Source: Candidatus Tectimicrobiota bacterium
Lineage (GTDB): Bacteria; JACPSX01
Direction of reading: 5' to 3'
Assembly: GCA_016193065.1 (NCBI GenBank)
Contig: JACPSX010000039.1
Coordinates: 1-20,611, forward strand
Length of the DNA: 20,611 bases
Positions within the stretch are counted from its first letter, which is position 1. Each line of letters opens with the position of its first letter. Below are positions 3,728-16,439 of the stretch, one piece after another. The notes under the pieces were generated by a model. The model ran no database searches and was not told the DNA's origin. It saw only the letters and a program-made list of their open reading frames with translations. Made by a program: the position numbers and the translations under genes.

Positions 3728-4840
3728 TCATCCCGGCCGAACGGGTTTTGGTTTGGTGTCCGCCGGAACCGCTCTCAGCGTCCTCCACTTCTGCTCCCAG
3801 GTCCAGGCGCTCGCAATGATGGTCTCCAAATCCGGGATGGCCGGCTCCCACCCCAGGACCCGGCGGGCCTTGGTGCTATCGCTAATGAGAACCGGGGGAT
3901 CTCCCGGGCGGCGCCCCGCGCTGGCCAGCCGAATTTTTTCCCCTCGGACCCTCTCGGCCACCTGAATGACTTGACGGACCGAAAAGCCGTTGCCGTTTCC
4001 CAGGTTAAACACGCCACTTTCCCCGCCCTTCTCCAGATAATCCAGGGCCAGCATGTGCGCCGCTGCCACGTCGCTCACGTGAACGTAGTCCCGAATGCAG
4101 GTCCCATCCGCAGTGGGGTAATCGCTGCCAAAGACTCTCAGAGCCTCACCCTCCCGCATTCCGGCCCGCAAGGCCAGCGGAATCAGGTGAGTCTCCGGAT
4201 CATGGAGTTCGCCTGTTTCTCCTTCCGGGTCAGCTCCGGAAGCATTGAAGTAACGAAGACAGACGGCGCGAAATCCGTAGGCCCGGCAGTAATCCTCCAG
4301 AATCTCCTCCACCATCTGCTTGCTTTTGCCGTACGGAGACAGGGGGTTTTTGGGGTGATCTTCTTTGAGAGGGAGGGAGAGAGGAGTCCCGTAGACTGCG
4401 CAGCTGGAAGAAAAGATGAAAAGCTTCACCCCGGAGGCTCTCATGGCTTCCAGGAGCACCAGGGACTTGCCCACATTGTTCAGGTAGTAACGCCCCGGAT
4501 CCCCCATGGATTCCCCCACATAGGCGTGGGCGGCAAAATGCATGACAGCAGAGATCGGGTAGCGGGCAAACAGAGTTTTCACCCGCAGATCGTCTCCCAC
4601 ATCCCCCTTCTCAAAAGTCCCCCAACGAGCCAGTTCCACATGCCCCGTACTCAGGTTATCCAGGATGATCGGGTGAAACCCTGCCCTGGCGAGGGCCTTA
4701 GCCGCATGGGAACCCACATATCCGGATCCTCCCGTAACCAGGATGAAGCGATCCTTTCGGGCAGAAGGGGCAGGGACATCTCTCCTTGCCCCTCTCATCC
4801 GTCTCCTCCTCACTTTGCCCGTTCTCCCAGTAGGTTCCAT
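3728..4840 (-). CDS. galE: UDP-glucose/UDP-GlcNAc 4-epimerase
   Basis: An extended short-chain dehydrogenase that interconverts UDP-Glc/UDP-Gal or their N-acetyl forms. It has the NAD motif TGGSGYVGSH (36-45), SSSCAVYG with the catalytic Ser, and YGKSK with Tyr170/Lys174. The GalE signature YFNASGADPEGETGE and the C-terminal RRPGDPP are also present. With the ATG at 4840 it is 370 aa, with an unusual ~30-residue basic N-terminal extension before the usual start. An ATG at 4798 (356 aa) also has an ideal AGGAGG at 6 nt, so the start is uncertain. Upstream is a terminator hairpin and a TTGACT hexamer (4900-4895) without a good -10. A hexamer inverted repeat covers the first ribosome binding site. 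It leads a sugar-nucleotide cluster. Confidence 0.92.
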   Translation of the reverse strand: MEPTGRTGKVRRRRMRGARRDVPAPSARKDRFILVTGGSGYVGSHAAKALARAGFHPIILDNLSTGHVELARWGTFEKGDVGDDLRVKTLFARYPISAVMHFAAHAYVGESMGDPGRYYLNNVGKSLVLLEAMRASGVKLFIFSSSCAVYGTPLSLPLKEDHPKNPLSPYGKSKQMVEEILEDYCRAYGFRAVCLRYFNASGADPEGETGELHDPETHLIPLALRAGMREGEALRVFGSDYPTADGTCIRDYVHVSDVAAAHMLALDYLEKGGESGVFNLGNGNGFSVRQVIQVAERVRGEKIRLASAGRRPGDPPVLISDSTKARRVLGWEPAIPDLETIIASAWTWEQKWRTLRAVPADTKPKPVRPG

Positions 4841-5879: not shown

Positions 5880-5928
5880 CGGTCCATCTCCCCTTGCCAC
5901 AATCAACCGATCAACCGCCACCCTCCTT

Positions 5929-6045
5929 CTCCGAGGGGGCCGCCCCCGTAGGCGATCTAAGGGGTTGCGAGGAAGAGGACCCTCGATTCCGCCAACACAA
6001 CTCGCGTCGTAAGCCCTTCGTGAGCCAAGGGGGCACCCCCTCGGA
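5929..6045 (-). repeat. Dispersed GC-hairpin repeat, copy A
   Basis: Read on the minus strand, this 117-bp segment opens with TCCGAGGGGGTGCCCCCTTGG and closes with TCGCCTACGGGGG, two more bases and CCCCCTCGGAG. The plus-strand segment 8113-8228 has the same layout and nearly the same length. The two ends match closely and the middle is more diverged. Each end is a tight hairpin with a G5/C5 stem and a 2-3-nt loop. Confidence 0.65.
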
Positions 6046-6066
6046 ACTTGTCCTTGGGCCGATACC

Positions 6067-6902: not shown

Positions 6903-7010
6903 CTGGTGCCGTTCCAACTATTTTGGGCTACGTTCCCATCTCCTCCAATCCATACCTCTTCTGCCACGTACATCGCTCAAATTGGGCGCAGCAAGTTGGA
7001 ACGGTACTAG
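6903..7010. repeat. MITE-like inverted-repeat element, copy 1
   Basis: A 108-bp element with 17-bp terminal inverted repeats, CTGGTGCCGTTCCAACT (6903-6919) and AGTTGGAACGGTACTAG (6994-7010), 15/17 paired. It shares both ends with the element at 16333-16439, including GCTCAAATTGGGCGCA (6975-6990), while the middle differs. The outer four bases (CTGG/CTAG) could be a decayed target duplication. The right end contains the TAG stop of the LysM gene. No transposase is present. Confidence 0.75.
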
Positions 7011-7963
7011 CGGTTATCTTTTAAGGACCACCCCCCCCTCTGCCTCGCCTTGCGCTCCGCCTCTCGAGCCTTTTCTTCATCGTAATCTCGGGGAATGATG
7101 AGCGTCTGTCCCGGGCGCAGCAGATCAGGATCTTTCAGAGCATTTTCATTGGCTGTAAAAATCAAAGGCCACAGCCAGGGGTTGTTATACACCTCGGGCC
7201 TGGCAGCAATATTCCAGAGACTGTCTCCAGGTTTGACCGTGTAAGTTTGCGGAGGAGGCGCCGCGGGTTCCTTCTCTACGGGCTTCGCTTGAGGCGCCGA
7301 CGCCTGAACTTCTTCCGCAACGGGACCCGCTTCAGGAGCGGGGGCCGGCACTTCCTTCTTGGCTTCCTCCGCTAACTTACGCTGCCTCTCTCTTTCCTGC
7401 AGGACAGCCTGAACCCTGGAAAGAGCCCCCTCGACTTGTCCGAGAGACTGGCGCACTCGGGAAACTTCGATGAGAGAACTTTGCGCATCTCCTCGGTCGT
7501 TTGCATTTTGAGCCCTGACCAGCGCCGACTGCGCTTCTGCCACCAAGCCTGTGGCGATCCTCAAATCTTCCTCCAGCGCACCCTGGTCGCGCCAGGTGGC
7601 CACAGCCTGGCGCGCGCGCTCCATCTGCTGTCGAACTTCCGCAATCGCCCGGGTTGCCGTCTCCTTCGCTCGAGCCTTAATCACCAGCGTTTCCGCTTCA
7701 GCCGCTTCCGCATTTTCCCGCGCCTCGTTGGCCAAAGCCCTACCCATTTCCTGGTGCCCATCCGTCAACTCTCGCTCCGATTGGCGGATTGCCTCCTGAG
7801 CACGCCGGTAACGGTCCGGGGAATAAACTTCCGCTCCTATACTGCGGGCCGCTTCCAGAGCCGCTTTGGCATCGATCAGTTCTTGCTGAGTATCCAGGGT
7901 GACACACCCGGCCAGCCAAAGCATCATTCCGGTGATCAAAACCCGCCCCGGTAACCCCGGCAC
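7007..7963 (-). CDS. LysM-domain lipoprotein with N-terminal helical (DUF4398-like) region
   Basis: A 318-residue predicted outer-membrane or periplasmic lipoprotein. The start chosen is GTG 7963, preceded by GGAGGA at 7 nt. This gives a compact signal peptide ending in the lipobox LAGC, with C20 as lipidation site. An ATG at 7999 would add 12 residues with no ribosome binding site. Residues ~25-200 are long Ala/Glu/Arg-rich helices of DUF4398 type. A Pro/Ala/Glu linker follows (~205-238), then one LysM domain at 240-292 (YTVKPGDSLWNIAA to LRPGQTLIIP) for peptidoglycan binding. The tail is basic. The role is probably envelope structure or tethering. Its TAG stop lies inside the repeat element at 6903-7010. 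Confidence 0.85.
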   Translation of the reverse strand: MPGLPGRVLITGMMLWLAGCVTLDTQQELIDAKAALEAARSIGAEVYSPDRYRRAQEAIRQSERELTDGHQEMGRALANEARENAEAAEAETLVIKARAKETATRAIAEVRQQMERARQAVATWRDQGALEEDLRIATGLVAEAQSALVRAQNANDRGDAQSSLIEVSRVRQSLGQVEGALSRVQAVLQERERQRKLAEEAKKEVPAPAPEAGPVAEEVQASAPQAKPVEKEPAAPPPQTYTVKPGDSLWNIAARPEVYNNPWLWPLIFTANENALKDPDLLRPGQTLIIPRDYDEEKAREAERKARQRGGWSLKDNR

Positions 7964-8023
7964 TCGGATCTCCTCCGTCCCCCCCATCCTGGATTCCACA
8001 AAAAAGTCCGCAAAGTTTTAAAA

Positions 8024-8109: not shown

Positions 8110-8509
8110 AGCTCCTCGGGGGAGCCCCCTTGGGCTCCCGAACGGCTTGCGGCGAGAATCTTCCCGGCTAAGTCGCGAGGAATCGAGCGCAACCCGTTAT
8201 ATCGCCTGCGGGGGCTACCCCCTCGGAGGAGAGAGCACCGAGGGGACTGTGCTTCCTGCCCTGAGCGCAACTGCCGGGAGCAGCGCAACACCCGCAAAGC
8301 GGGTACCCGCACCGGGAGCGGCCAGGGATGGGAAACCGCGAAGCCAACACGCGCTTCCAGATAGCTGAAAACTTATCGTGGCGGTAGCGGAGGGATCCCA
8401 CCCTGGGCGCCCCGTAAGGGTCCGCTGCGGGAGGCGTGGAGCGAAGGGCAGAAGACAGTCCCTTTGCTATGGATTCGCAAAAACTGGGTGTGGGCACCCC
8501 CGAGGGGCT
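8110..8509. repeat. ~400-bp segment bounded by an 18-bp inverted repeat
   Basis: AGCTCCTCGGGGGAGCCC at 8110-8127 and its inverted partner at 8492-8509 match at 16 of 18 positions. Repeat copy B begins inside the left arm. The midpoint falls near the hairpin at 8290-8304. This may be the boundary of a small non-autonomous element or a large folded transcript. Confidence 0.5.
8113..8228 (+). repeat. Dispersed GC-hairpin repeat, copy B
   Basis: The 116-bp counterpart, in opposite orientation, of the repeat at 5929-6045. It starts TCCTCGGGGGAGCCCCCTTGG and ends TCGCCTGCGGGGG, two more bases and CCCCCTCGGAG. Both end hairpins are kept although loop bases differ, which hints that structure rather than sequence is conserved. 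Confidence 0.65.
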
Positions 8510-16332: not shown

Positions 16333-16439
16333 CTAGTGCCGTTCCAACTATTCTGAACTCCATGCCCGGTTTGCGAGGTCCATATTTTTGCGGCCAGGCG
16401 ACTGCTCAAATTGGGCGCATTCAGTTGGAACGGTACTAG
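16333..16439. repeat. MITE-like inverted-repeat element, copy 2
   Basis: A 107-bp element with terminal repeats CTAGTGCCGTTCCAACT (16333-16349) and AGTTGGAACGGTACTAG (16423-16439), 16/17 paired. CTAG stands at both ends and could be a 4-bp target duplication around 13-bp TIRs. Inside, GCTCAAATTGGGCGCA (16404-16419) is identical to copy 1, while ~50 bp in the middle are unrelated. The TAG stop of glnD (16438-16436) lies in the end repeat. Confidence 0.78.

Follow-up and report, generated by a model that had tools for sequence, protein, structure and literature searches.

Two MITEs at stop codons in a Candidatus Tectimicrobiota contig belong to a mobile family whose autonomous form is probably a 311-318-bp GIY-YIG nuclease element

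The window, by which we mean the whole stretch of 20,611 nucleotides of Candidatus Tectimicrobiota DNA that was analysed, contains a LysM-domain gene and glnD, both on the minus strand and both ending in a CTAG tetranucleotide that adjoins a short inverted-repeat element. The features of the two loci are as follows.

6903..6906, no strand: outer 4-bp target duplication of copy 1, CTGG (diverged from CTAG), from the sequence and flank statistics
6907..7006, minus strand: miniature inverted-repeat element (MITE) copy 1, 100 bp, subfamily A, right (R) end at 7006 and left (L) end at 6907, from alignment and L/R asymmetry
6907..6919, plus strand: terminal inverted repeat (TIR) TGCCGTTCCAACT, L end of copy 1, then AT
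6994..7006, minus strand: TIR TACCGTTCCAACT, R end of copy 1, then TG
7007..7010, no strand: CTAG target duplication, whose TAG at 7009-7007 (minus strand) serves as stop codon for the adjoining LysM gene
7007..7999, minus strand: LysM-domain (DUF4398-like) gene ending in the CTAG flank, 336 codons open
16333..16336, no strand: outer CTAG target duplication of copy 2
16337..16435, minus strand: MITE copy 2, 99 bp, subfamily A, R end at 16435 and L end at 16337
16337..16349, plus strand: TIR TGCCGTTCCAACT, L end of copy 2
16423..16435, minus strand: TIR TACCGTTCCAACT, R end of copy 2
16436..16439, no strand: CTAG target duplication, whose TAG is the glnD stop codon
16436..19207, minus strand: glnD (PII uridylyltransferase) ending in the CTAG flank, 987 codons open

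A sequence-only reading had placed two such segments at 6903-7010 and 16333-16439, and we confirmed in the sequence both these coordinates and the outer CTGG/CTAG and CTAG/CTAG, the 13-bp TIRs on both segments (17 bp with the flank) and a common right end, which measured 36 bp at 92% identity. The same reading took the middles of about 50 bp to be unrelated, and this was wrong, as the middles are identical at 31/55 positions, a score matched by only 1 of 5000 shuffles. Aligned over their full length, middles included, the two copies are identical at 80/110 positions, and both align to a single subfamily consensus made from 12 copies of their own genome. Curated Rfam families gave no match anywhere in the window. 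Another inverted dispersed repeat pair of about 122 bp, unrelated to the MITE, lies at 5926-6048 and 8110-8231; it is G+C-rich (CCGAGGGGG...CCCCC), has a 44-bp arm that is 86% complementary, and flanks the recO/LysM region.

Counting further copies in the host genome had been named as a check, and such copies were found. The 2.9-Mb genome of the window has 33 exact occurrences of the 13-mer TRCCGTTCCAACT and none of its reversed control, so the window ends are far beyond chance; extraction and alignment yielded at least 19 complete copies of about 100 bp, nearly all of 99-101 bp, in at least two subfamilies. Scanning GTDB contigs for CTAGTRCCGTTCCAACT gave at least 115 stretches, where single matches may be due to chance. 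Complete, two-ended elements were present in Acidobacteriota, Gemmatimonadota, Pseudomonadota, Methylomirabilota, Nitrospirota, Omnitrophota, Armatimonadota and Myxococcota. The family is patchy across at least seven bacterial phyla. Exact ends numbered 98 + 98 (about 100 copies) in genome G147 and 182 + 161, that is 343, in genome G1084, while within one taxonomic family copies were present in 5 of 15 genomes and numbered zero in the remaining relatives. Among 145 genomes drawn as relatives of the window genome, all distant and hence weak evidence, copies were found in none but the window genome itself. Of six matches of the ends to viral contigs, at least three fall in the same phage sequence, which has no second end, and were set aside as chance. 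At L090:5671-5812, L121:247-338 and G1084:C54:21848-21960 the 25-bp end repeat is tandemly arrayed at a spacing of exactly 25 bp, which yields elements of 66, 91, 116 and 141 bp.

The consensus of 242 ends reads CTAG followed by TGCCGTTCCAACT and NNTTNNGNCNAAT, about 25 bp in all, with the 13-bp core conserved at 98-100% per position save positions 2 and 13. The proposal of a 4-bp target duplication around 13-bp TIRs was borne out: the flanking tetranucleotides are CTAG/CTAG in 83 of 121 elements and CTGG/CTAG in five, and the pairs TTAG/TTAG, CTAA/CTAA and CTGG/CTGG were also found. Because these variant or non-palindromic flanks occur as direct repeats, the duplication is genuine. Nested insertions in G147 gave the same result: one element lies within another, between TTAG/TTAG or CCAG/CCAG, and siblings of the interrupted element exist without the insertion. 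These 4-bp duplications rule out a TA duplication of the IS630 type. Empty sites had been named as a further check, and one orthologous empty site was identified upstream of gapA, where G147 carries CTAG-element-CTAG and G166 a single tetranucleotide, TCAG, with both sides alignable. Taken together, the nested insertions, the uninterrupted siblings, the empty site and the patchy spread demonstrate that the family is mobile. It shows TIRs, a target duplication, dispersed copies with an empty site, no coding capacity and a putative autonomous relative sharing its ends; the suggestion of a non-coding MITE therefore holds, and the MITE identity of the window copies is close to certain.

Insertion was concentrated at stop codons. 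In 106 of 191 distinct elements the TAG of a CTAG flank is precisely the stop codon of an open reading frame of 100 codons or more, as at both window copies (LysM gene, stop at 7007; glnD, stop at 16436), and counted per flank the stop-codon frame accounts for 123 of 379 cases versus 50 and 29 in the other two frames. The simplest reading of this siting combines a CTAG target with survival: through the duplication the host gene regains its stop codon and is unharmed.

Among non-nested elements, 70/171 are exactly 100 bp and 111/171 are 99-101 bp long, and at least 39 interior clusters without detectable mutual similarity have median lengths of 99-101 bp; other lineages prefer 66, 71 or 82 bp, which indicates that 100 bp is not obligatory. 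Several longer members were also noted. In G147, L233, L236 and L242 measure 182-184 bp; their interior is rich in G+C and in hairpins, and one of their ends, AGTTGGAGGAGCA, is diverged. L280 (G000:C32:8041-8307) is a 144-bp element with the same ends and another interior; the next end adjoins it directly through a common CTAG and runs into the contig end, so a longer family member may be cut off there.

A full-length insertion sequence (IS) with these TIRs had been anticipated. Among the ends listed for about 20 genomes no ordinary IS was seen, but a larger candidate partner with the same ends was found: rare elements of 311-318 bp (L067, L076, L112, L135, L171), compared with 66-143 bp for the MITE copies, have CTAG flanks and a single open reading frame encoding a GIY-YIG nuclease of about 92 amino acids. 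Added genomes supplied more of them (L260, L373 (same family as G147) and the copies in G1084), and GIY-YIG elements with these ends are known to us from Nitrospirota, Gemmatimonadota, Acidobacteriota, Myxococcota and Methylomirabilota. The nuclease frame extends into the end repeat (...NKLERH) and its stop codon is the TAG of the flanking right-hand CTAG. The proteins match Pfam PF01541 above the cut-off (1.3e-8 to 6.2e-15), and an AlphaFold model (pLDDT 87.8) has UPF0213 (1zg2) as its best PDB match, then Slx1, with I-TevI distant. The nuclease gene is under purifying selection, with a dN/dS between lineages of 0.12-0.20 where dS is unsaturated. In a tree, a single branch separates the proteins that have these ends from the others in 82% of bootstrap trees, which is moderate support. 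Broken copies of the gene also occur (L374, L135, L112).

In the methylomirabilotal genome G1084 about 13 near-identical insertions of the nuclease element itself were found. The five complete copies examined are flanked by CTAG at either end and show 0-8 differences from the reference copy in 312 bp; the differences between copies are mostly non-synonymous, as expected if individual copies decay after insertion. Beside them stand 82-bp MITEs that consist of the first ~40 and the last ~42 bp of the nuclease element joined by internal deletion. In the window's own genome (86% complete) and in G147 with its roughly 100 copies, both incomplete assemblies, no intact GIY-YIG partner was found; the own-genome candidates were UvrC and an unrelated 160-aa reading frame that lacks family ends. 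Perhaps the window copies are relics, or perhaps they rely on a partner that is lost or unassembled. Plasmid and phage records gave no match to the nuclease protein. As a derivative of the nuclease gene the interior of the window subfamily was rejected, the match not being significant. Two 100-bp elements elsewhere, L232:1512-1612 and L090:7043-7143, show a weak match to the 5' coding sequence of the nuclease (GTCACGC-TCGCTGAA..GACGTATGTG), which may be what is left of the autonomous element.

The nearest GIY-YIG relatives are 277-294-bp elements bounded by inverted repeats of other sequence. In genome G330, two such sister insertions (L393:1155-1449 and 4252-4546) have TGAA on both sides and are located at ATG start codons, where the host ATG starts the nuclease frame while the TGAA duplication and the inverted repeat recreate an ATG for the host gene; a search of G330 for more copies of this type returned these two complete ones only. 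The sister element L350 has a TTTA duplication, and at L286, L294 and L296 no duplication was recognised. Overall, an exact flanking inverted repeat of at least 11 bp accompanies 16 of 68 GIY-YIG loci, a few of which may be other repeats, versus 2.8% of mismatched pairings.

From these results we conclude, with a probability of roughly three in four, that the window segments are non-autonomous MITEs of 99-100 bp whose autonomous form is the 311-318-bp GIY-YIG element. That the nuclease serves as the transposase is our inference, and it seems reasonably likely that the elements belong to a new DNA transposon class whose transposase would be this single-domain enzyme of about 92 residues, with MITE families in several phyla and sister families using other targets (TGAA at start codons, TTTA). 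In the mechanism we propose, a nuclease dimer would bind both 25-bp ends and cut CTAG at the element boundaries and at the target with a 4-nt stagger, after which host ligase or repair would join the ends and leave CTAG on both sides; as CTAG is its own complement, host ligase could join the cut ends. A copying route instead of simple cut-and-ligate is conceivable. MITEs would form when the nuclease element loses its interior, or when two ends come to enclose some other sequence, and would be moved in trans; the window copies would be passengers of this kind, deposited where the LysM gene and glnD have their 3' ends. Several points count against this reading: no partner was found in the window's own genome or in G147, some nuclease copies are broken, the nuclease may be a passenger of another transposase, hydrolytic GIY-YIG chemistry alone does not account for strand joining, and the window subfamily has an interior that is not recognisably derived from the nuclease element.

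Several other explanations were weighed. That the similarity arose by chance or from a single local duplication has nothing in its favour except that the window holds two copies, and it is refuted by the 33 exact ends versus none in the control and by the copies at unrelated sites in many phyla. Another possibility is that the repeats are REPIN-like or otherwise selected hairpins with a role in RNA or DNA, for example 3'-end hairpins or terminators at stop codons, and selection on folded ends had indeed been suggested in the sequence-only reading. Most copies do lie directly after stop codons, and as RNA the two window copies fold more stably than shuffled sequences do (z about -3.5), yet any 13-bp TIR gives such a fold and the siting is explained by the CTAG target plus survival. 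Over the first 26 positions, column composition by itself accounts for essentially all of the agreement between the two ends, and core position 2, the only variable one, is usually mismatched when it varies (42 G/A versus 2 A/A). Moreover, the two ends are systematically unlike each other at positions 14-15, where 0 elements have AT/AA at both ends versus 17.7 expected. This lack of covariation, together with the L/R asymmetry, argues for recognition by sequence, and fits a protein that would distinguish two ends, L and R. Since the patchy presence, the elements nested in others, the empty site and the 4-bp duplications show the family to be mobile, and since the element is absent at orthologous sites, with neither conserved presence nor compensatory stem changes seen, hairpin selection is refuted as the main cause and we regard it as very improbable.

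A more serious alternative holds that these are ordinary MITEs of a DDE insertion sequence (IS5, IS701 or IS481-like) with CTAG/YTAR targets, in which the GIY-YIG gene would be cargo and the true transposase rare or lost in incomplete assemblies. A 4-bp CTAG-type duplication with short TIRs is typical of DDE elements, many host genomes lack a visible GIY-YIG element, and draft assemblies lose repeated IS. Against this, among the matches listed for about 20 genomes no pair of ends is spaced at 0.7-3 kb, as an IS would require, and no larger gene-bearing element appeared. Unpaired ends were also considered as termini of a long IS; at the 18 loci inspected by eye the flanking reading frames included no recognisable transposase, and several of these ends had decayed partner ends near 100 bp. 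Wherever a gene was found within the ends, in five phyla, it was this nuclease, on which purifying selection acts; sister GIY-YIG elements, whose ends differ, have nothing else in common, and in G1084 it is the nuclease element itself that has multiplied. On balance we consider a DDE origin unlikely, and retain the GIY-YIG element as the probable autonomous form.

Transposases are classed by their catalytic chemistry as DDE, HUH, tyrosine or serine enzymes, and to our knowledge GIY-YIG enzymes have not been found to move DNA through inverted repeats. The DDE insertion sequences of the IS5, IS701 and IS481 groups use CTAG/YTAR targets with a 4-bp duplication, which resembles the CTAG/TTAG/CTAA targets seen here, but no DDE gene was found within the family ends among the matches listed; the autonomous form, at 311-318 bp, would be about half the size of the smallest insertion sequences we know of. 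Prokaryotic MITEs derived from IS are of two kinds, having either an interior derived from the autonomous element or likeness at the ends only (PMC10969869). Like these, the present elements are short and non-coding, with TIRs, a short duplication and many copies per autonomous copy, and both kinds are represented, by the 82-bp G1084 copies and the 100-bp copies, respectively. Unlike in IS-derived MITEs, the matching element encodes a GIY-YIG nuclease and not a recognised transposase, and length is pinned near 100 bp over the many dissimilar interiors. REPINs, which RAYTs mobilise (PMC3116915, PMC3733652), are likewise numerous short palindromic repeats moved in trans, but REPs have a GTAG-type tag and a Y1 transposase, whereas here there is a CTAG target duplication, no GTAG tag, and ends that do not covary as hairpins.

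Among GIY-YIG enzymes, R.Hpy188I and R.Eco29kI are small restriction enzymes that cut short symmetrical sites, which makes GIY-YIG action at a short palindromic site biochemically possible (PMC2630997). These differ in having no TIRs and a paired methyltransferase, and R.Hpy188I leaves a 1-nt 3' overhang as opposed to the proposed 4-nt stagger. Homing endonucleases such as I-TevI offer the precedent of a GIY-YIG nuclease, with the PF01541 domain and a distantly matching fold, as the enzyme of a selfish element, but a homing enzyme does not recognise the mobile DNA to which it belongs (PMC1564403), while here the ends are conserved in the family. Homing also acts by repair at long allelic sites (intron or intein), with no TIRs, duplication or MITEs, in contrast to the TIRs and 4-bp duplications found here at many unrelated sites. 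Small UPF0213-type GIY-YIG proteins (PDB 1zg2, 1ywl) are the closest solved sequences and fold; most ordinary GIY-YIG relatives in the same searches, however, have no bounding inverted repeats of at least 11 bp. In open-licence PMC papers we found no description of a GIY-YIG transposon or of the end sequence.

The window copies themselves are MITEs, a known kind of element, and the novelty lies in the system to which they belong. The finding gives a testable answer to the old puzzle of MITEs without a findable autonomous partner: such a partner would be missed because annotation tools seek transposase genes and a small GIY-YIG reading frame is named by its domain only in current family models. 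An enzyme of about 92 residues that acts on defined ends and a 4-bp target would, provided that it works alone, be attractive as a tool. If the proposed reading is true, it adds a class of transposase and brings the size limit of autonomous transposons down to about 0.3 kb, and the 311-318-bp element, if autonomous, would be the smallest autonomous DNA transposon of which we are aware.
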